Assembly (NCBI RefSeq): GCF_027942865.1
Contig: NC_134510.1
Coordinates: 9,206,183 to 9,270,182 of the forward strand
Length of the DNA: 64,000 bases
Direction of reading: 5' to 3'
Source of the DNA: Odontesthes bonariensis
Taxonomy: Eukaryota > Chordata > Actinopteri > Atheriniformes > Atherinopsidae
The notes under the pieces were generated by a model. The model was given only the letters and a program-made list of their open reading frames with translations. It was not told the DNA's origin and ran no database searches. Within the stretch, counting starts at the first letter, position 1; every line of letters starts with the position of its first letter. This document shows positions 1,917-63,787 of this stretch, piece by piece. Position numbers and translations under genes: made by a program.

Positions 1917-4900
1917 AACCTCCGGAAGATGGAGGCGGAAACGTCAGAGGAGCCTGGCGGAGACCTGAATGAGCTACAGAATGCTGACTGGGTATACAAC
2001 CACACCTCAAACTTCCAGCATAAACTGATCATTTCTTCTTAGTGGTGTAGACCCCTTTTGATGTAATCGGATAGATTTTTCAATACTGCATGTTCACATA
2101 ACACAACCTCTATGAAACCATGCACCACTCTAAACAGTAAGTTAATGCTGATTTGGATGGAGCCACCCCTCTCCCCTTAATTTTGCTGCACAGAGATGTT
2201 AGCTCACAGATTAGAATCAAATACAATTTACTACTGTATTAAAGGGTTTGTGCTATTTTCTACATCTATATCGTTGTCCAATTTCAATGTTTGCTTTCTT
2301 TGTCAGGCACGATTCTGGGTTCAGGTGATGAGGGACCTTCGTGATGGAGTCAAACTGAAGAAGGTGCAGGAGCGTCAGTACAACCCTCTGCCCATCGAGT
2401 ATCAGCTCACTCCCTATGAAATGCTCATGGATGACATCAGGTCCAAACGCTACAAACTGCGCAAAGTCATGGTGAGTGTCTAAAAATGTTTTGCAGCCCA
2501 CAATATAATAATCAGTGAAGTATGTTTGGATTAGAAATGTTCATGCCTTCTGTTTACTACACAGTTTTTTTTTCATCTTGTGGGAAAATGCTTTGATTGA
2601 CTCGAAAATCCATGTAAATGACAATACTGAGGCCAGGGTTGGTTTAAATGGGAGTACTATAAAAATATTTTAATGACAGTTCTCTTCCTAAAAGTAAGAG
2701 TTGTTGTGCTTGCTGGATATCATTTTAGCAATAGGTAAACTTTTAACACAGTCTGTAATTTAACATGAGCAATAATAAACAAAAGTTGGTCAAGAACATT
2801 ATAAACACATTAACACACAATTTCAAGCTTTTTTTCATCAAATTCAAGATGAGCTAATGTGTTTTGATTTTGAGTAAAATGTCTCACTTTCAACATTTGA
2901 CTTCTTCTATATACGATCATGAATAAAATATTGTGTTCACATGTTTTTTTTAATGTGGGTTGTAGGTGACCTCCTGAAACAATCAAACAAAATTTTGTTC
3001 AGATTACAATCTGCCCCCTAAAGTTGAATTTTTGAAAGCCTGAGTACCTCAAAAGCTGGGACCTTGACACCAAACATGGCTGCCCGCCCTGCACATAAAA
3101 TTCTCTTGGTAAAAAAATGTTTCCAGTCCCACTCATAGTACTGTCCAAAAATGTATCAGTGAACAAATTACTAAGGTGTTTTTACCAAAATGCAGTGTAA
3201 GGAATGGTTATCAGCTGGTATGTTTCGTCTGGTCTGTGAGCACAACAGTGGACAAATCTTAGTTCTGTCAGAACCACTCTCGTCAAAATGAGACGAGAAA
3301 CAGATATAAATTTCAGAAGCTTATTCTGAATGCATACAATTTATGTTTGGTGGTATGGCTCTGTTCGGAGGAAGTTCCCAACTTTTCCATGAGCTCCATG
3401 GAAGCCAAGACAGGGAACAGCAGCATCCTCAGGTGGAGTGCCTTCCATTTGCTGTAAAGGCAACAACCCCCTAGAACAGAGCAAGCAACAATGAACAACA
3501 GAATGACATTGTTTGGCAATGCGAAGTGGAGGTGATGGGTGCAAGCAGAAAGCAAAAAGAGCAGTGACAGCAAACCAAGTTTAAATGAAGCGCCCCGAAT
3601 GCCAGCATCCAATTGCGAGCAGCAGCTGATTACCCATAAGCACAGTTGGTTTGTGGACAGCCATAAGGGTTGGGTCGGCGTCAGCCAATAGGCAAAGGGC
3701 GCGTTGACTACGTGGCCTGCCAGAACTATCGCGGTGCTCCATTGATGGTTCAACTTGCAGCTGGAACTTGATCAACCTGAGTGTGACATTGATGCCAGCT
3801 ATGAATTCCAACATCCAAAGCTTCTTCATATTGAACTCTTTGTTGTGACTTCCAGTTAGTTTTAGAATAGAATTTTAGATTGTGTTTGTTTCTTTCATTA
3901 AAGGGATAGTTCACCTCTTTTGACATGAAACTGTATGACATCCCATACTAGCAATATCGTGCATGAACATTGGCCCCCGCTGCGTCCTGTGAGCCGAGTT
4001 CCGGCCACATTTTGGTGTTGACGAAGGTAGTCCGGCTAGTTGGCTGGGGTCAAAAAAATAAAGCGTTTTGCTTCTCAAAACAATATGCGTTCAAAAGAGT
4101 AATACAATTGAATCACAAAATCGTTCTCCAGGAAAAAGTAAGACCTCACAATCGATTTTGTGATGCAATTGTATTGCTCTTTTAATTTTTTTTTATATTG
4201 TTTTGAGAAGCAAAACGCTTTATTTTTGTGACCCCAGCCAACTAGCCGGACTACTTTTGTCAACACCAAAACAAGGCCGTAACTCGGCTCACAGGACGCA
4301 TTCTGGGGTAAGCCAATGTTCATGCTGCTAGTATGGGATGTCATACAGATTCATGTGAAAAGAGGCGAACTATCCCTTTGAATGGTTTTCCTCTCTGACC
4401 TTTTCACTTTGCACATTCCCATGAGATTATTAAAATCAGCTGACCAGAAGCTCCTGGTTGTCCCGTGGATATCAGGCCTTTGCTTTAGCTTCTCCTAAAC
4501 TTCTGGTTTCTTTAAATATGAACAGTGAACATTATTAAAAAACAAATAATTTTGTGCTTTGACTTTTAAGCCAGACCTCTTATCACACTGAACATGTTTA
4601 TCACACATTAAACATGCTTATACATGTAGGACTAGACCCGACTACTCATGGAGTCAAACCCTTTCTCTCTTCATGTGTAATCAGGTGAATGGAGACATCC
4701 CACCCAGGTTAAAGAAAAGTGCTCATGAAGTTATCCTGGAGTTCATCAGGTCCAGACCGCCTCTTAATCCCGTGAGTACAAATAAATATTGTAGATTTAA
4801 ATCTAAAACATGTCTTCCCTTTAAACAAATGATCTCTTGCTTCAATCTCTGTGACTCTCTCTAGTTTTTGTTGTTCCTTTGTAAATTTTAAAGCCAAAAT

Positions 4901-39100: not shown

Positions 39101-42100
39101 TTGCCTTCCAGTTATATTGGTCTGCTCCAACTGCATGGTAACAGCACACTTATTGTTGCAGTTATTGTTCACTCGAGCCATAAATCTTGACTCATATTAT
39201 TGGAAAGAAAAAAAAGAGTTCAAAGTACAGGCTGTTTTGCAATGCTGTTTACCTTTCGGTGTGATTCATAATGAAAGTAGGGGCTAGTCAAGAGTCTGAG
39301 TCAGCGTGTGGTTTTGTTTTGGTTGCGTTATGTGGGATTTGATTTCTGTGTAAACATTATAGATCTTGTTCTTTTGCTGTCCTCTAAATCTATTTGTCTT
39401 CAGACTTAATTAGTTGAAATCAAGAAGAATGTGTTGTGAATGCTATTTTTTAAAAAACAGTTTTTTCCCACACTCTTGAGTTTCGGTTTGTGATTTTTCA
39501 ATCTGAGTCAGGTGTCCGTCATACTTATCAGCAGGTGCTTCCAGGTTAAACTATTACGATGGGGACTGCTCAAAGTCCTTCCAGTCTTAGTCTGTCCTTG
39601 TAATGTCTCTGCCGCAAATCGACATCACCTAGAATCTTTGAGTAGCTGGTTTGAGCACGTCGACGTACACCTAGATGTCTTGTTTGCGGCACTTCATTGG
39701 AACGGTTCGTCAGTGCGGCCGCCATGTTGGTCAGGTACATATAGAATTTTAGCTTCAATACATGCACAAACAAATGCTCCAGATTCCACTTTCATCTAGT
39801 TCACTCCAAAATTTAGAGCCCTATAAGATACTACATCAGTACACTCATTTGACCTTGTAAGCTCATGACTGACGTGGGTTCCTCAGATTTAAAGTCTGCT
39901 TTGCTTCATACTTGTAAAGATTTCAGCTTGAAGATGACTGAAACGGGGCGATTTGCCTTTAAAGTTGACTCAGTTGCAGCTAATATTTTTGAATATGTTG
40001 TGTTATGTGTACGGCTCTATCCTTTTTTCTAAATCACTCCTCTCGTTATGCATCCACAGAAGTGAAACTTGACCCGAGTAAAGCCTGGTGCCCGGTGCTT
40101 GGCTGTCAGGCGGTTTGCAGCATGCAGCCGAGCACTGAGGGCCGACCGGCCGCTGTGCCCTGCCTGACCTGCCACACTGTCTTCTGCTCCAGCTGCAGGG
40201 GGCCCTGGCAGGACGCCCACACCTGCCCGGAGCACCAGCTCATGATATCGCCCTCACCCTCCCATGAAAGCAGGTTAGTCGGTCGGTTTGGTCAGCTGCC
40301 CGCTGCCTACAGCCGCAGGGCTGCGCTTTGAAAATGGCACTGCGCTAAAAGCAGGACAAGTGAGTCAGTTCAGGCACTGAGGGGCCTTCTTAAGGGGCCT
40401 AGAGAGGCCTAGAGAGTTACTGCTGTAAACAAACTTGGAAGCGAATCAGGATTCCAAGGATCATGTTTTCTTTGTTCTGTTTTTATGTGGAAAATATTAT
40501 GATTTTACCGCTTCTATTTCATATAAAAATGCCTAAGTGCTATTCGGGCAGCACTTTGAATTTGATTTGTTGCACCTCAGCCCTCAAAGGTGTCTCTGTG
40601 CTGAATAATAACATTATTTTAGGATTAGTAGCTTCGTATTTCTCAGCAGAGGCCTCAGTTTAGTCCCTTTGGTACAGCTATATAACTGCGCTGTTTAAAG
40701 CTGTGGCTCTGCCAGATTGACTGATGTCATCCGGGAGCCACTGAGTTATATTGGAATTCCATTGTCTCTGTGCCAATGGGAGGAGGAGGCCGGGTGGGAG
40801 CTGAGCAAGTTAGTACAGCAGAAGTCCAAATGCTGCAGTGGCCTCTGCAGTGTGCTGTTAAGGATGGAGGAGAAATCATTCAAGCTCCTAATACTGTATG
40901 ATTTAGCCTTTTTGCTGTGCTTCTGTCATCAGGATGTAGTTGCGGAGCATTTTCCATCTCATTGGTTTGGTTTTTTGGCCTGCCTTTATCTCATTGCTCA
41001 GGAACTCCTTGCCCTCAGTTATTGCAATCATCCATGATTGTAGATATGACCTTGCAATGTACTCTGAGAGTCCCTCTCTCATACTCATGCTTCTCAAAAT
41101 AATTAACCCTTTTCAAAGCGAGTTCACATGCTGCTAAATTAAGATTTCCCACATTGTCTTTAGGCTCCCGGGGCACTTATGGCCTCACGCTCCTAACATG
41201 CTCCCTTTAAGCGCATTCCCGGTGTTTCTTTTGCCTTCTCCAACAGCGACACTGACATGTCCATCAAGCAGTGTCCTATGTGTGGTATCTACATCGAGAG
41301 GAACCAGGGCTGTGCACAGATGCTGTGTAAGAGCTGCAAACACACTTTCTGCTGGTACTGTCTGCAGAATCTGGACGTGAGTCTCCTCCTGCCAACGATA
41401 CCACAAATGCGAAACATGGTTGTGAGCACAAGTTGATAAAGCTAAGAAATATGCAACTAACGTGGTTGTTTAAATGCAGGGAGACATCTTCCTGAGACAT
41501 TATGATAAGGGACCGTGCAGAAACAAGCTGGGACACTCGAGGGCCTCAGTTATGTGGAACAGAACACAGGTGAGGCATTTTAAGTTTGTGGGGAGGCTGT
41601 CATTGTCTCTCAGACAACTGTGAGTCACAGCATTTTTTTTGGACTGAATGTTTTTTCATGGGCCTTACTCTGCCATCATATCACCAGGATCAGCTGTTAA
41701 AAGTTTGCGGACTTAATCTTCGTGAGACTTAAACCTTCTGTGAGGGTGAAACACTAAACAAATAAATCCAAGCCGAACAAGTAAAATTTCCATGACGCAT
41801 TTCACTTTATTTAGAAATGACAAAGTGTGCTACTGCACTCTCATTTATTGCCAGAAGAGCATGAGGGACATTTAGTTTCCTTTCCACTTATCAGCTGCTG
41901 CATTTTTAACTAAATGTACAGTTAAAGGCCTGTAAAGTCTGTGCTGCCGTGCCGTTTGGGTTGTTTATTTTTCCACCACTGTGTCCAAGAAATCCTTTAT
42001 CAGACTTTAAACTGAGCTAATCCCAGCACTAATCCTAAATTCCTGCCCTGTAGCAACGTCAGCCATTCAACAAGACGATTACAGTTGGCCATCAAACCTA

Positions 42101-47080: not shown

Positions 47081-47519
47081 GTATAATATGCACGGCAACC
47101 GTGCGAGTGCGCAGGGACCGTCTGCAACACATGGGCAAGACGCTGTAAACAAAAATCAGCAACTCCACTGTTGTACAGGATAGAGACGCTAAAACCACTC
47201 CACACATCAGCGTTCTCCTCGTGACCACACTACAACAGCTGTTATGGACAAACCAGGTTCTGCAAAATGTTGGTATTTAAAAAAAAAATCTGATTAATCG
47301 ATAAAAACTTGAATAGTAATCAATAACTTTACTGTTAGAAAGTACATACGCTCTAAACTCACGACACACATCACCAGTCTCCTCCTGGTCATACTACAGC
47401 AGCTGTTTTGGACAAAAAAGGATTTGGAATAATTTTGGTCATTATTTTTTTTAGTTTATTAATCATTATTAACTTCAATAATAATCAGTAACTTCGCTGC
47501 TATAAAGTACAGACACAGT

Positions 47520-47937
47520 ATGGACAGTATCCTGGAGATCTGTAAATGATTAAGAACAGGATTTTAGGAACACCCTTTAAAATAAAACTCAGACATTCAA
47601 AAGAAGTGAAATCACCAAATGAGATCTCTTTACACTGGAATGTATCTTTAAATAAGGCAGCCTCCCCCCCACCTTTCCTCCCATTTCGGCATTTATCCAT
47701 AAAACTAAAGTTTGGGGGAGCTGCTTCATTAAGAACAGTAGCACTTGTGCTCTCTGTTAACCATGTTTCTGTCAGAAAAAGAAAATCTAAATTGTGTGAA
47801 ATTATGAAGTCATTAACTAACAGTGACTTATTGGACAGAGATCTAATATTAAGTAAGGCTAGCTTTGTGGAGTTTACACTGGTCTCTGTTGTATTCTGAG
47901 TTGTACGTGGTACCGTTAACAGATTAGATAGATCCAC
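47520..47937 (-). pseudogene. LINE ORF2 start, truncated inside the endonuclease domain
   Basis: The frame begins MDLSNLLTVPRTTQNTTETS and continues with LALLNIRSLSNKSLLVNDFI and FLFLTETWL, the N-terminal part of an APE-type LINE endonuclease. It is cut off after IYRSPG, where the sequence passes into the left repeat arm; the last few codons are arm sequence. The reverse transcriptase is absent. The element has lost its 3' part, opposite to the usual 5' truncation of LINEs. Confidence 0.8.
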
Positions 47938-48060
47938 CCAGGAAGTTGACTGTTTTTGATTCCTTCTTTTACTAACTAATACAGGAATCCTATTGGGCCC
48001 CAGCTTGTTCTCAGAACAGCTGTCAGCAGTCGGACTTCTATAGCAGGGACCCTGAACACA

Positions 48061-49389
48061 TCATGGCATGGTATCTTTGGTTTGAACAGTGCTATCTTTG
48101 TTTTGAACTCTGGGTGTTGTGCTGCTCCTTGAACATCCTGCACATCCCCCTGTGTCCTGCTCTGCCAGGACAGATGATGTAAGAGGAGGAGGAGGGGGTG
48201 CCCTGCGTTTCTCGGTAGATGGTGGTCGCTGGAGTCCTGGCTGGGATAGAGACATCCTTTTGAGACCTTGGGTGATGTGGAGTAAAGGGTCTGGTGAGGG
48301 GGGAGGGCTGGGGGTTGTTTGCCTCGCTGCTGTGTCCTTCAGTCTAATCTGTACAGTCATGTTTGGGTTTGCCGTCCCAACAGCATGACGTAAATGTGCA
48401 CCAAGTAATCTGCATCCAGTTCGATTGGGATGCACGCCATCAGCTCTGAAACGCTCCTTACAGTTCCAAAAGATAATAAAGTTATCAATGAACTTAATCC
48501 CATGGGCGATGCATGCATTTGACAACCATGTGTTCAGGCCGAGAAGTCTGCTGAAAAGTTCAATTCCTTTACCCACAGTAGGAATGGGGCCAGAAATGGA
48601 GACCCGGTGTGCTCCATAGTGACACAGTCTCTCCAACAGCAGAGAAAAATCCTTCTTCAGGATCTCAGAGCCAGTCTTCCTTCTCAGAATATCAAAAGAC
48701 CCTGTGTGGACCATGATCCTCGTGCCATCTGGATGAGTAGACAGAATGGTCGGCAAAATATCTATCAGTTCCCTGACTGATGTATCAGAAAAAGTTATAT
48801 TTTCCGTCTTTGCCATTCTGACATGCTGTGTTATAGAGTCCCCGATCAGAATGGAATATATTGCTTTTTGTGTGGAGGTGTCGATCACTTCTGTAGTCCT
48901 CACCTTGGTTGTGGGATTTGGGCTTCTCCTGATGATCTGGTTAGCCCTTGGCTGAGGTTTGGGGCCATTTATTTTGTTTGTCTTCATGTTTGGGTTACAT
49001 TCATCATCACACACTCTATTTTGAGTCAATGGATCGTATCTATTGTGCAATAGAACTTCAGGTGGCGGAGTGAGTGCTGGAGGTTTAGGTTTAGTGCTGG
49101 GTTTACCTCTGCGACGGACAACATGAGACCAGATCCTGGCCGGGGTTGATGATTTGGGTTTGGCACCAACACTGTTCCAGTGGGTGATATCAGTCGGACC
49201 GTCCGGTTTGGAAGCTTCACCAGATATTCCAGTGTCATTCGGGCACATCCAGGGAAGTGTGTCAGCCAGGGCTGCAGCATGAGGCTCCACATCAGCTGTG
49301 ATCCCGCATAGAAAGATCTGAGTTAGTCCTTTGGCACGTGAAGGCTCCACAGCCTGCACAGGCGCTATAATAGAGTCAATAAATTCCAA
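48061..49389 (-). CDS. LINE ORF1 with SGNH/GDSL esterase-like domain
   Basis: An intact 442-codon frame. The N-terminal ~180 residues are Pro/Lys-rich and low in complexity. The middle holds an SGNH-hydrolase-like domain: ILIGDSITQHV (block I with the Ser), a degenerate block III (VHTGSFDI where GxND is usual), and ADGVHPNRTGCRLLG with the Asp and His of block V. ORF1 proteins of CR1/L2-type LINEs carry such an esterase domain. It stands 123 bp upstream of the ORF2 start on the same strand, the normal LINE order. It is probably a recently active copy, since the frame is open, but the rest of the element is missing. Confidence 0.8.
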   Translation of the reverse strand: MEFIDSIIAPVQAVEPSRAKGLTQIFLCGITADVEPHAAALADTLPWMCPNDTGISGEASKPDGPTDITHWNSVGAKPKSSTPARIWSHVVRRRGKPSTKPKPPALTPPPEVLLHNRYDPLTQNRVCDDECNPNMKTNKINGPKPQPRANQIIRRSPNPTTKVRTTEVIDTSTQKAIYSILIGDSITQHVRMAKTENITFSDTSVRELIDILPTILSTHPDGTRIMVHTGSFDILRRKTGSEILKKDFSLLLERLCHYGAHRVSISGPIPTVGKGIELFSRLLGLNTWLSNACIAHGIKFIDNFIIFWNCKERFRADGVHPNRTGCRLLGAHLRHAVGTANPNMTVQIRLKDTAARQTTPSPPPSPDPLLHITQGLKRMSLSQPGLQRPPSTEKRRAPPPPPLTSSVLAEQDTGGCAGCSRSSTTPRVQNKDSTVQTKDTMP

Positions 49390-50325
49390 ATGTTTTGCAG
49401 CGTTTAAATTCTCTTCTCGAGCTGTGTTATCCTCACAGAGAGTCGCTCACACTGTGTGCAGCTCACTGATACTGCAGGGTTAGGAGACATTGTCCTGTCC
49501 GATTCGCTTTGCAAACGGGAGGGATAATACTGTTTACAAATATACAATTAAAAGAAAAAAAATAAAATAATAAAATTATATCCGTGACTTTTGGAAAGAC
49601 GTAGAATGATTTAAAAGCAAGTAAAGCAGTAAGCAGCAGGAGGAAGCAGAGACTAGTCTTGAAAAAGAGTCTAAAATATGTATATTTCTCATCATGACCC
49701 GTAAGACCAGGAGGAGACTGCTGATGTGTGGAGTGAGTTTGGGGGGTCTGGACTGTATACCAGTGAAGTTATTGATTACTATTGAAGTTATCGATTAATA
49801 TTCCCAAATAGAAATTCACCAAAATTATGCAAAACATTTTTTGTGTAAAACAACTGTTGTAGTATGACCAGGAGGAGACTGCTAATATGTGTAGTGAATT
49901 TGGAGTTTCCGTAATGTATAAAAGTGAATTTATTGATTTACTATTGAAGTCATTAATGATTAATAACAATTAAAAAAAAAAACACGTTTTTTTTGGTCCA
50001 AAACAGCTGTTGTAGTATGACCAGGAAGTGATCGCTGATGTGTGTAGTGATTTTGTAAGGTGTGTATTTTATAACAGTGAAGTTATAGACGTTTTTATTG
50101 ATTCACCAGAATTGTAAAAAAATACCAAAATTATGCAGAACCTGGTTTGTCCATAACAGCTGTTGTAGTGTGGTCACGAGGAGAACGCTGATGTGTGGAG
50201 TGGTTTTAGCATCTCTATCCTGTACAACAGTGGAGTTATAGATTTTTGTTTACAGCGTCTTGCTCTTGTGTTGCAATTTGCAGACGGCCCCTGCGCACTC
50301 GCACGGCTGCAGGCTGCGCATAGGT

Positions 50326-50471: not shown

Positions 50472-53400
50472 ATGGAAGAGGACTGTTTGTCCCCAGATTA
50501 CATGTGAAGAAATTCAGTCTCACGATCTGCTCCTAAACACAGTTTGTCCATTCCGCTACATTTCCGATGGGAGACAAGGCCTACGCGGGTTGAAATAGCC
50601 CTTTCTCATCAAATCTTATCAAATATTGCTCGACTATGTTCCACAGGCATTCCCAAGATCCAGTATGTTCCAGGTGCTGGACCCACAGATGTCATGTGCT
50701 TCAAACACTACGATGCAGAGGAGGTAGGTGTGGCTCACAGAGACACATGTATGGAAATGGAGCTTGGCTGCAAATACTGAAACTGACAGGAATGAAGTAG
50801 ATTTGTTGGGATCCAACAACACATTTTTTTTCTTCTTGAGGGCCTTACAGGAAGTGGTAGTTTTAAATGCAGAGCTGTGGCCTTCTGTGTGGAGCTCAGT
50901 GTTCCTCTGTGCAGGTGCTGATGGGGCGGACGATGGAGGACTGGCTGAGATTCTCAGTCTGCTACTGGCACTCCTTCTGTGGAACTGGTACTGTAACAAC
51001 TGAGCCAAACGGTCGGCAGAGGCTTTGCGCTGAGTAAAACAGATTCCCTCTTTACATCGGGTTAGCACTTTTCTCCTTTGTGTAGGCGCTGATCCTTTTG
51101 GGTTTCCAACCCTCCACCGGAAATGGAATGAAGGCTCCCCGATGGAGTCGGCCAAGAAGCGTCTTCGTGCTGCCTTTGAGTTCTTCACCAAGCTTGGTGT
51201 GAGGGAATTCAGCTGAGCTTTGATATGTTTTGTACAGTGCTGTGCAGAAGTCTTGAGCCACCTCTCATTTCTTCATGTATTGCCAGGAAAACAGCAAATT
51301 GATCGAGCAATTAATTGAAACGTGTGCAAGCATGATAAGAATGCAGAATGCAAAGCAAAAATGGTTCGCAAATGCAATGAACTTGAAAGTCAATATTAGG
51401 CATGCTCACCTTTATTTTTAAACACAGCCTGAACCCTCTTATGACAAGCTTTCTTGTTATTTCTTTAAGTAGTCTTCAGGAATAGTTCTATAAGCTTTTC
51501 CAAAGCTCTTTGGATGTTGGCTGTTGATCCCACACTGCTTCAATAATGTTGAGGTCCAGGTTCTGGGGAGGATTAATCCCTCCATAAGCCCTACTGCCAC
51601 ATTTTTCTAAGTCCACTTCTTGTGTCATTTGGCATACCTCAGCCTTTTCTCCCCGTTTTCCCTTCCTTAAGAATGGCTACTTGACAGCCACCCTTCCATG
51701 GAGACCATTTGTGATGATCTCTAATAATTCAGATGGCGCTCATCTTCTGTAGATAGTTTTTTAGCTGTACCCTTTTCTTCTTTTGTCCTCCACTTGACCA
51801 ATTTCTTCAGTTCCTTAAGGACTGCACGCACCATGCAGAAATATGCCACATTTTCAGCTGATCATTCTTTATCACATTGTTGTTGCAAAAACACTATTTA
51901 TTGTCTGTCAAACTATGTTATCTTTGTACTATGTTATCACTTATTTTGTAGATTCAACTAAAAACTGAACTGAAACTAGAAACTGTAGCAAAACCAACAA
52001 TGTGGTTTTACAACAGAATATCAAGTTTTCTGTGATGTGTGTAAATATCACTGCTTATCTCTTGAGTATGGTGCCTTTTTTTATGCTATAGTAATTCATA
52101 GGTGTGCGTTAAGCGGCTTAACAAACAAGAAATGTATGAATATGAAATTGTTCAAGTTCAAGAATTGGACTGAAACTGTGTGAAAAAGCAGCCGGTGTCC
52201 AAAGAAAGTAAAAATATTTCTAGAAAATATTAGATTCTTAAAATTATGGCTCCTTTGAAGCAAAATATGAAGAAAATATGAAGACTTTTCCACAGTGCTC
52301 TATTTGGTCAGAATTAGTACATTGCTTCTGTAAAACTTCTGCTTTTGTTTCACAGGTCAAGTATTACACATTTCATGACCGGTGAGTGACTTCAAATAAT
52401 CTTGCTTTCACCCCATTTTAGAAAGTTCAGACAGAAGCTACATTTACCCTCAAGTGGGTTTTGTATATTAACTGTAGTTTAGACCGCAAATAATTTCAGT
52501 CAGACACAATTCACAAATGTTAGAGGATTTAGATTATTTCAAAAAGGTACACATGTTTAACAAAATTGACTTACATTAGTAAAGAGTCCAAAATCCTGGG
52601 CAGCTGACGCATACTGTGATAGCAGCCACACTCTTTATCAGGTAGACTGCAGCTCAGTCTGCACATCATCAGCCTGGAGGCCAGCACTTGCTGAACAACG
52701 AGATGTTTTTGTTTTTAATCCTTTTTGTTTAATATAAGCACATAAAAGACCTCTCAGTTGAGCTCTTCTCCTCACAGTGATATGTCCCCTGAGGGCTCCA
52801 CTTTGGAAGAGTCTAACAAGAATCTGGATGAAATCACAGAGCTGGCTCGCCACCTGCAGAACCAGACTGGAGTCAAAGTGCTGTGGGTCACCTGCAACCT
52901 CTTTGCCCACCCAAGGTCGGTATTCTTAAACCAGCATGTACGAAAATAAATGTGACACCAGGCTGTGTGGGAGGAGGTGCAAAGTGTTCAGCAGTCATGA
53001 AAATGTGTCTGGATCCTGTAAGCGGCTGGCTCCGAATCACAAAGCACCGTTTCCCCACAGGAGTTTTTTAAATAATGCCACTCCAGTTACTGTGCTGTGG
53101 CTACGAAAAAAATAATTTTGTGGGCAGATACAGAATTAGTTTGATCATGCACTGAGGCATTAATAGCAGGAGGCAAGGCGCACAGCTCCAGCCTCTCCAG
53201 GGAGGAAAACCCTCTTACAAATGCAGCAGCTTGCGTCATTAGGAAGTGATACAGTAAATTTAAATCAATGAACAAGCAAGTTTAAACTTGGTATACACAT
53301 TTGTAGCCAGCTACTTAAATGAAACTGTCATGTCTTCAGGTGGATCATTCATCCTCTTCAACTCACTGAAAATATCTTTCGTTGTATTTGTACTTTTGCT

Positions 53401-56263
53401 CTACCACTAATTGGTGTCATGCATGCGTTAACGTTAAATGTCACATGACAGGTACATGAACGGCGCTGCCACCAACCCGGACTTCCATGTTCTGGCCTAC
53501 GCCAGCGCTCAGGTGAAAAAGGGTCTGGACATTGCCAAGAAGTTGGGAGCAGAAAACTTTGGTGAGGACTTGATTTGTGTGACATGTAAAGTCCGTCATT
53601 TCCATTTGTAAATATTGTCCAGTCTCTGTAATCCGAATATGTTTGTCTCCTCAGTCTTTTGGGGAGGTAGAGAGGGTTTTCTTTCCGTCCACAACACAGA
53701 TGTCGCAGCTGAACTGAAACATATGGCCAACTTTTTCAAAATGGCCATCAGTAAGTGTGCACGTGAATATGAGAGCAGGCTGAGTTTCGGTTTGTCTCCA
53801 GTCTGTATAGCTAATGTCTGTGAATCCGTCTCCAGAGTACAAGGAGAAGATTGGGTTGAAGTGTCAGTTTCTTATTGAACCCAAGCCAAAGGAGCCCTGC
53901 AAGCACCAGTATGATTATGGTGAGGCTTCCTAAATCTAACGAAGCAAATACGCCATTTCATCATCATCATCCACCTCCAGTGTTGAATGTTTCTCACTCT
54001 CTCCTGCTTTAGATGCTATGAGTGTGATAGGATTCTTAAAGCATTATGGTTTGGAGAGCCACTTTAAGTTGAACATCGAGCCCAACCACACCACTCTGGC
54101 AGGGCACTCCTATGAGCATGACGTTGTCATGGCCTCAGCGTAAGACCTCATCATTTTACTGGAAATTTAAAGTTATCTATGTTGGAAAAGTTGCTGTCAT
54201 AGCTTGAGTGCTGCCATGTGTTAAATGTTCTTTGTCGTCCTCGCTGACCGGTGAACAGTTTTGGCATGTTAGGCTCAGTTGACTCAAACACCGGCTCTCC
54301 TGATCTGGGCTGGGACACAGATCAGTTCCCCATGGACATCAGGAACACCACCTTGGTCATGAAGGTAAGCTGATTAAATGAGTCTGTCTACTAAGTATGC
54401 TGCCGGTAATCTTCATAAAAGTGACATTGTTCAAAAGTTATACGATGATCAGCCACAACATGTAAAAGACAACTTGCAAGATTACTGCAGAGATGAGGAG
54501 TGCAGCAGACAAATGGGATGCCGTGAGAGTTGGACAGATGAAGAAGAGGAGGGTATCAGGTGGATAAGATACAGTTTGTCACAGTTCAGAATCATTTATG
54601 TGAACACAAGTGTAAAGTTTGGTTAATAAGGAGGAAAAAAACAAAAACAATGTCAGCAATATACTAAAGCTCTAATTTATTCTTAATGTTTTATTACGTT
54701 TAAAAATAACTCAGACTGCACTCATTTGTTATTATAGCAGATGACTTGTACAACACACTTTAACTTAATTTACTCCACAATAACTTGAACATCCAATGAC
54801 TGAACTGGACTAAGCCTCAATTGTTTCAAGATCATACATGAACAACACCCCTGGGGGGTTGAAATGTAAATTGACAGTCCAAATATGACTAGTCATGAGC
54901 AGCCTACAGCCATTTCCGACTGTGTAATGCTTTTTTTTTTTTAACATGACAGCAGCTGAAGTGGGAGACTTAACTGCTAATTACGTCCGTAGAATTGGTC
55001 ATTGCGACAACAAATTGTGATGTCAAAACAGTGTCACAATTTAATTCTATAATGGTGATGCTGCGATCATGGGTTTGTCCAGTCAACATACACTTACATC
55101 CATGCCCACTCCTCTACACAGTTCTCTTGCTACGTGAGATTTGCCAGCTATTTGGTTACTTACTCTGTTATCTGCATTGTGTTGGACACATAACGTAAAG
55201 TGCCCTTAAAAGGATTTCTTTTTTTCTTTGAAATAATTAGATAAAAGTAGACCACAAAAGTAAAACGGTTGGCTAAATGAGGTAGAAGAGTGTCGCTGGA
55301 GTCATAATCAAAAGCAACTCCCTGTCAGCTCAGTTCAGTTTAGAAAACTCTGTTTATCCCAAATGGGCAATTCGGTTTGACAGCCTTCCCAATTCACTTA
55401 ATATATTATCCACTTTTGCACTGTTAGTATAAATCTGTCAACTGATGCATATTTAACTATCATTCAAGCCACTAATGAACAATTAAGGTTTAATCGGGTA
55501 AAGTGGGATTTTGAAATAAGGAAATGGCTCTCTTTAGTAGCAGCACATGAAAACGGAGCTAATGGAACCAGTAATTTCTTAGTGTCTAATCTATTACAGG
55601 CCATCATTGAACAAGGTGGTCTGCAGCCAGGAGGCCTGAACTTTGATGCAAAGGTGCGCAGAGAGTCCACAGACCTCGAGGACCTTTTCGTGGCTCACAT
55701 TGGAGCCATGGACGCCTTTGCAAGAGGACTCAGGAATGCTGTTCGCCTCATTGAGGACGGGGTAATGGCTGGTATGGTGAAGGTATGCGTTCAGCCGCTC
55801 GTATGTAAAACAGACCGTCCTGCACCGTCTGTGAATGAACGATCAAGTCATGTCCAACGTTAAACAGGAGCGGTACTCGAGCTTCAGTCATGGCTTGGGG
55901 CAGAAGGTGGAGGATGGTTGTGGCACCTTAGAGGAGATGGAGGTAAGACACCAGCCAAGCTGCTCAGCGGGAGTTCCATTTAATAAAGTGGAACGGCTGC
56001 CAGCTGCAGGTGCTTTCTGCACAGTAACTTCTCTCGTTAAAGCTTCCTTATTAATCAGTGTAGTTTCCTAAACTTAGAGGGAAACATAGCTGTTGAATTA
56101 TACATTTAACAAGTCATCTGAATGAGAGAGGATGGCCCCCCAGATATGAATATTTTTTGTTTTTCTTTTATGATTTCAGGCTTTCATCGAGCAAAACGGG
56201 GAGCCAAGAGCAACATCAGCAAAGCAAGAAAAATACGAGTCAATCTTTAATCATTACATATAA
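50472..56263 (+). CDS. Xylose isomerase (XylA-type), nuclear, 13-14 exons
   Basis: Interconverts D-xylose and D-xylulose (EC 5.3.1.5). Exons: first coding exon unsettled (candidate 50472-50484), then 50647-50723, 50915-50987, 51086-51198, 52356-52381, 52778-52915, 53452-53561, 53655-53750, 53836-53919, 54013-54139, 54259-54364, 55600-55782, 55868-55942, 56180-56263; 434 residues with the candidate start, the usual family length. Motifs in order: IPKIQY, FKHYD, FCGTGADPFG, FHDRD (H99, D102), FVFWGGREG (W186), LIEPKPKEP (E230, K232), [12 protein letters not shown] (E266, H269), GSVDSNTG (D294), GWDTDQFP (D305, D307), [13 protein letters not shown] (D337). All known catalytic and metal residues are kept. 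From memory it resembles plant xylose isomerase more than the common bacterial enzymes (RRESTDxEDLF, SAKQE near the end). An AATAAA lies at 56614. Neighbours are ordinary fish genes. Confidence 0.93.
51233..52305. mobile_element. Degenerate Tc1/mariner-like transposon in a xylose isomerase intron
   Basis: The left end ACAGTGCTGTGCAGAAGTCTT resembles the CAGTGCTGTGCAAAAGTCTT terminus of fish mariner-type elements. The right end, read inward from 52305, is AGAGCACTGTGGAAAAGTCTT. Inside, the minus strand has traces of a transposase-like 3' half but many stops. It is about 1.07 kb. Its presence in the intron shows that the xylose isomerase gene sits in normal fish DNA. Confidence 0.65.
54365..55599 (+). 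other. Xylose isomerase intron
   Basis: 1.2 kb between the GWDTDQFP exon and the LNFDAKVRR exon. No repeat or exon was recognised. Confidence 0.5.
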
Positions 56264-57320
56264 TCAAAAAGTGATGAAGTTCTGCCTGTAGGATAAAACA
56301 GGACTAGGAAGCGACTTTCTTAAAGTTTTGTATTAGTCCGGTTGGAATTAGAACATGTTATTAATCATGTAAACATTTACAGATGAAATGTGTGTCTCAA
56401 GTATTTGTGGTGCTGTTGACATAAAGAATCATCTGGATGTATTTGTACGAACTCATGTTTACTGTTTAAGAAACTATGTTGTCAGAATGAAGTTGAGTGA
56501 TCATGTTTACTGGCAGCTTTTTACAGTCCAGTTAACAAGTCACAAGTGTGCACAGCTACGATGTTCCAGCAGAAAATGAAATAATGTTACGTTTAAAAAC
56601 AGTCAAACTGTACAATAAACTTGTGACTTTGTGACTTGACTGTTTTCAGGGAAGCTAATTCTACTTTAATATTAGGGCTGAATAGACCTTTGATCCTGAA
56701 CGCCCAAATAGTATTTACCTTGAATAGGTTATGGCAGACAGTAGTTCGAAGTTGTACTATAGGAAAACTTCTAACTATATATATCTATAGTTTTATGTTA
56801 CACTGTGTACACTGTTACACTATGTTTTATAGATTGAGGACATATGTGACTGGAAGATATCATTATTATTATCTTCCCCAGCAGTCTTACATAATTGACA
56901 AATCTAACTAACCAGTTTATGTTGATAAAAGTTGTTCTGTAGTTCATATAACATCATTTTGGACACTGCCACCCACACACCAACAGTGGAAAGAACTCTC
57001 ACTCTATTATGTGATTCGAATCCACACCTGGCCAGATGTGCCACTCTAGTCTCAAGCCCTTTAAAATGAATGATATTGCATAGACATTATGACTGTGGAG
57101 TGTAACTGGATTATGGCTCTTTTACTTTTTGTGGTGACTCGATAGATACAGCGTGGCGTCTTAACTCGAGTAGAGTCCTAATATGTATGAGACACGCAGT
57201 CTAAATGGTGGTACGTTGTTACCCCACAGAGATCATTCTCCTGTCAAACATCCATAATCTTTGATCCCGTGCAGCCTCTGGACTGTCAAAGAAATAAAAC
57301 TCGCTTTCCATTGACATCAC
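56264..57320. other. Xylose isomerase 3' UTR and spacer to sqle
   Basis: An AATAAA at 56614-56619 probably ends the xylose isomerase transcript (3' UTR about 370 nt). The remaining ~700 bp before the sqle promoter has no supported gene or clear repeat. Confidence 0.6.
56614..56619 (+). terminator. Xylose isomerase polyadenylation signal
   Basis: AATAAA about 350 bp after the stop codon, followed by GTGACTTTGTGACTTG, a GT-rich downstream element. Confidence 0.7.

Positions 57321-57765: not shown

Positions 57766-63787
<6,022 letters not shown>

Follow-up and report, generated by a model that had tools for sequence, protein, structure and literature searches.

To our knowledge, the textbook view holds that vertebrates reach xylulose by the reductase/dehydrogenase route only. 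The locus described here raises the question of whether a fish, Odontesthes bonariensis, also carries a working gene for xylose isomerase and, if so, where that gene came from. The locus lies in a stretch of 64,000 bases (hereafter the window, C6:9206183-9270182), located in a contig of 42,238,777 bases within a genome assembly of 945,434,557 bases in 187 contigs. A sequence-only reading of the window had proposed a full-length xylose isomerase gene split by introns. Our analysis, which compares sequences throughout, indicates that the locus is probably a working nuclear gene for a cytosolic class II D-xylose isomerase (EC 5.3.1.5) belonging to an old animal lineage.

The proposed gene was borne out by its structure. 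The coding region spans 50567-56263 on the plus strand and consists of 14 exons (Table 1), rather than the 13 previously counted. All 13 introns carry GT-AG sites, range in length from 58 to 1235 bases and fall in phase 0 (n = 5), phase 1 (n = 5) and phase 2 (n = 3). The spliced frame of 1314 bases encodes 437 residues and a stop, contains neither a frameshift nor a premature stop over the 14 exons, and ends at the same stop codon that had been proposed (56261-56263). The GC content is 0.51 in the exons versus 0.39 in the introns, and reaches 0.62 at the third codon position.

Table 1. Features of the xylose isomerase locus (window coordinates)
Feature	Position	Strand	Basis
Coding exon 1 (MGDKAYAG; start codon, upstream in-frame TAA)	50567..50588	+	N-terminal profile, best of 29 candidates
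Coding exon 2	50647..50723	+	GT-AG, frame kept
Coding exon 3	50915..50987	+	Spliced frame
Coding exon 4	51086..51198	+	Spliced frame
Intron 4 stretch with dispersed repeat	51226..52050	.	Genome copies align at about query bases 3-708
Coding exon 5 (H102)	52356..52381	+	Spliced frame, residue numbering
Coding exon 6 (D105)	52778..52915	+	Spliced frame, residue numbering
Coding exon 7	53452..53561	+	Spliced frame
Coding exon 8	53655..53750	+	Spliced frame
Coding exon 9 (E233, K235)	53836..53919	+	Spliced frame, residue numbering
Coding exon 10 (E269, H272)	54013..54139	+	Spliced frame, residue numbering
Coding exon 11 (D297, D308, D310)	54259..54364	+	Spliced frame, residue numbering
Coding exon 12 (D340)	55600..55782	+	Spliced frame, residue numbering, genome matches
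Coding exon 13	55868..55942	+	Spliced frame
Coding exon 14 (stop TAA, 56261-56263)	56180..56263	+	Spliced frame
AATAAA, candidate poly(A) signal, about 350 bases 3' of the stop	56614..56619	+	Pattern match only

To evaluate the 5' end of the gene, an N-terminal profile built from 80 bacterial relatives was used to score 29 candidate first exons within 1.7 kb upstream. The start at 50567 ranked first with 11.0 bits, a score that carries a mild circularity because the anchor column of the profile came from an alignment including this version, and the runner-up obtained 2.0 bits. The coding start previously claimed at 50472 (MEEDC, reconstructed with a donor after 50484) keeps the phase, but it scored -7.2 bits and ranked 11th of 29, and was rejected. 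Judged by this profile, 50567 is most likely the coding start. The donor of exon 1 agrees with the consensus at 2 of 7 positions, compared with 3 of 7 for the 50472 version and 5 of 7 for two overlapping upstream candidates near 49900, and intron 1 measures merely 58 bases. Exon 1 is therefore the least certain exon, owing to its weak donor and the short intron that follows.

The predicted protein was compared with family models and solved structures to determine the identity of the enzyme. TIGR02630 (NCBIfam xylose isomerase, equivalog) matched with 643.1 bits (cut-off 533.25; E 2.2e-193), and residues 6-437 of the protein were aligned to positions 2-435 of the 435 in the profile. The class I model TIGR02631 gave 125.5 bits, under its cut-off of 447, and Pfam PF01261 (TIM barrel) matched with 39.1 bits (cut-off 31.1). 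Among solved structures, eight xylose isomerases align with almost the entire protein, 1a0d being the best (E 3.5e-148). These eight chains, which we take to be class II, match from residues 4-16, whereas the weaker ones, presumably class I, match from about residue 55; the N-terminal extension is thus present in the fish protein. The fish protein resembles the bacterial class II xylose isomerases (TIGR02630; 1a0d, 1a0e, 4xkm) in near full-length similarity and in ten active-site residues, and differs from them in being encoded by a nuclear gene with 13 introns and in sharing at most about 59% identity with those found.

The ten residues H102, D105, E233, K235, E269, H272, D297, D308, D310 and D340 are shared by all 80 bacterial rows, and are presumably the metal-binding and catalytic positions of xylose isomerase. 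The sequence-only reading had listed all ten correctly but numbered each of them 3 too low, as follows from the start at 50567. Among the 125 near-invariant bacterial columns (at least 79 of 80 rows agreeing), 109 are kept in the fish protein and 16 are changed. The changed columns include one missing residue near the N-terminus, four more in residues 16-23 and three beside key residues, namely, G141V by W140, A273T by H272 and A298S by D297. Substrate preference could have shifted in view of these changes.

Class II xylose isomerases open the sugar ring and perform a metal-assisted hydride shift between C1 and C2, thereby producing D-xylulose. In the fish enzyme, one divalent metal ion would be bound by E233, E269, D297 and D340, and the other by E269, H272, D308 and D310. 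By analogy with the family, K235 would aid the hydride shift that converts D-xylose to D-xylulose, and glucose may be converted slowly to fructose in a side reaction. The enzyme is probably cytosolic, because an N-terminal targeting peptide was absent on inspection by eye. After phosphorylation, the resulting D-xylulose would join the pentose phosphate pathway, thereby bypassing the cofactor-linked reductase route. The xylulokinase expected for this step was sought exon by exon, a search that is insensitive: the FGGY_N model gave six exon matches on three contigs of the genome, none of which was identified, and a bacterial XylB query (a frame taken for XylB) gave no match in the genome. Two of the FGGY_N exon matches compared with the PDB gave no match.

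The genomic setting was examined for signs of authenticity. Searching the genome with the protein gave 12 matches (11 of 11 candidates scored), all of which are exons of this gene, and the nine matches of the family-model search lay without exception at the same locus. The repeat in intron 4 has at least 55 aligned pieces on many contigs, including the window itself (40 of 3378 candidates scored), and its main pieces are 72-84% identical. A mariner-like remnant had been claimed in one of the introns; the part of this claim that stands is that intron 4 holds a dispersed repeat whose copies have diverged. The gene had also been placed between rnf144b and sqle on the same strand. An IBR-domain exon upstream (frame 40005-40331) and the sqle exons downstream all lie on the plus strand, in agreement with this placement. 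We take the IBR-domain gene to be rnf144b; a PDB search with the IBR-domain exon gave no match. Squalene epoxidase (sqle) occupies 57766-62610 and starts about 1.5 kb past the xylose isomerase stop. The frame at 62395 contains a squalene epoxidase domain and matched squalene monooxygenase 6c6n, the frame at 58365 matched general FAD/NAD-binding families only, and an apparent N-terminal sqle exon presumably begins at 57766.

Roughly 1 kb 5' of the gene (47500-49389), two minus-strand frames together look like a non-LTR retrotransposon remnant. The frame of 442 residues shows weak OSK/GDSL-lipase similarity under the Pfam cut-offs, and the frame of 145 residues, which has no Pfam match, is presumably similar to the beginning of a retrotransposon endonuclease.

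Bacterial relatives were collected to clarify the origin of the gene. A contig scan with six exact peptide patterns yielded 208 relatives, and the closest among the best 80 of 208, which were kept, was 58% identical and came from a Chitinivibrionales bin. In the nearest phylum, 150 genomes were scanned and 16 of them matched, with a best identity of about 59%. A recent bacterial transfer is very unlikely, given that no bacterial protein found exceeds about 59% identity. Four stretches of viral contigs fitted the pattern, and none of them encodes a relative. In the Chitinivibrionales locus of the 58% match (L001), the isomerase (1983-3296) overlaps by 8 bases the preceding sugar-kinase-like frame (464-1990), which we take to be a xylulokinase, as in an xylB-xylA pair.

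Trees of 81, 41 and 42 rows were built from bacterial rows and the window protein only; the 41-row tree contained 40 of the 80 loci, and the 42-row tree contained 28 of the 80 together with 13 loci of the nearest phylum, three repeats being omitted. The terminal branch of the window protein measured 1.27, 1.07 and 1.02 changes per site in the 81-, 41- and 42-row trees, respectively. Its nearest rows are Fibrobacterota, and its grouping with Fibrobacterota-side rows (8-row set) obtained 98/87 support in the 42-row tree. The inner placement was unstable, with 86 SH-aLRT in the 81-row tree, an open fork in the 41-row tree and 82/76 in the 42-row tree, and in the 41-row tree a clade uniting the window protein, L001 and L002 was not rejected (p-AU 0.286). 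The absence of a recent bacterial source is supported by the low identity, the long terminal branch and a position outside any recent bacterial group in these bacterial-only trees. Five isomerases of the nearest phylum (L113, L114 and L116-L118) formed a separate long-branch group with 100/100 support, and carry the motif D-I-N-R-G near the metal site versus D-A-N-x-G.

The novelty originally proposed for the gene is overstated, because sequences named xylose isomerase from salmonids, molluscs, a crab and a tunicate are already in print, some of them under automatic names. Animal xylose isomerase is already known, chordates included, and the Odontesthes bonariensis gene adds a member. Its role in vertebrates appears little studied: among the matches listed in the open-access literature (titles and abstract openings, with preprints and most subscription papers outside the scope), no study of a vertebrate xylose isomerase was found. 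In the available portion of PMC5007756, embryo reads of Arctic charr were aligned with EST contigs of Atlantic salmon, and a group of six contigs labelled 'Xylose isomerase' was higher in the aquaculture morph (FDR 0.0035); these are teleost transcripts of the same name, which is an automatic table name, and the comparison is by name. Excerpts of PMC4436767 and PMC5591498 give the xylose isomerase of Ciona intestinalis, a chordate enzyme that shares both name and class and is likened here by description only, as functional in yeast. Entries named xylose isomerase-like, likened by name only, appear in excerpts on other invertebrates, namely apple snail (PMC8533556), scallop (PMC12357810, in which the authors raise contamination from adjacent bands) and hybrid mud crab (PMC9312322).

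The available part of PMC10142993 attributes three octopus-ink peptides to a xylose isomerase-like protein of oyster, thereby allowing a comparison by peptides alone, in which one of the three is the same as in the window protein and two differ. The window protein contains an exact copy of the peptide LGAENFVFWGGR at residue 181, which none of 93 distinct bacterial proteins reproduces (best agreement 10 of 12 positions). For the second peptide, 7 of 10 positions agree, and 18 of the 93 bacterial proteins do as well or better; for the third, 3 of 9 agree, and 65 of the 93 do as well or better. On these sequence matches, the second and third peptides do not favour animal kinship, and the peptide evidence is mixed.

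Several other sources were set aside. Papers on a sponge microbiome, termite gut prokaryotes, marine isomerases (a review) and Drosophila gut bacteria shared words only, as far as their excerpts extend, and in the excerpt of a septin paper 'xylose isomerase' is the label of a database domain in a human septin. One peptide listed for xylose isomerase in an isopod proteome resembles, as we take it, phosphoglucomutase. This proteome, which names xylose isomerase in the portion available (PMC6798089), was rejected on account of that peptide.

Assembly contamination or a decaying pseudogene is highly improbable as an explanation of the locus. The weak donor of exon 1 could be read in that direction, but 13 introns with standard splice sites, 14 exons free of frameshifts and premature stops, one locus inside a 42 Mb contig and a dispersed host repeat in intron 4 argue against it. 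The single locus, the introns and the repeat likewise uphold the sequence-only reading in its view that contamination is very unlikely, and it is supported that the xylose isomerase gene is a genuine chromosomal gene. An independent old horizontal transfer into a vertebrate lineage from a bacterium akin to Fibrobacterota or Planctomycetota would account for the grouping with Fibrobacterota-side rows in the 8-row set, and for the two of three mollusc-assigned peptides that are no closer to the window protein than to bacteria. We consider such a transfer improbable, because a tree of bacterial rows alone makes some bacterial placement inevitable, the inner placement is unstable, no prokaryote above about 59% identity was found, and molluscs, a crab and a tunicate have proteins or transcripts of the same name. 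Old inheritance in animals looks likelier than private acquisition, and the gene would come from an old animal lineage retained in some fishes, molluscs, crustaceans and tunicates.

The enzyme might also be a sugar isomerase whose physiological substrate is not xylose but glucose/fructose, another aldose or a modified sugar, with fold and chemistry kept and the pocket drifted. The 16 changed columns, with G141V, A273T and A298S beside pocket or metal residues, and the long terminal branch (1.02-1.27 changes per site) are consistent with this possibility, which is nevertheless unlikely: all ten active-site residues are kept, the score lies well over the curated equivalog cut-off, and the Ciona enzyme, likened by description only, is given as xylose-active in yeast in the excerpts cited above. 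A class II D-xylose isomerase remains the preferred assignment, and its function should be easily testable, since a single copy was found and the class can be expressed in yeast according to the available parts of PMC4436767 and PMC5591498.

We tentatively suggest, as a possibility we would not yet favour, that some vertebrates retain an ancestral direct conversion of xylose to xylulose, and perhaps of glucose to fructose, independent of the cofactor-linked polyol route, and that others lost the pathway; the pocket changes would suit another physiological sugar. Under such an ancestral pathway, the xylose may derive from algae, from plants or from the fish's own proteoglycan turnover. An intact isomerase gene means that a vertebrate may be able to use xylose directly, free of cofactors, or to convert between glucose and fructose, which bears on pentose use by plant- and alga-feeding fish and on feed design.
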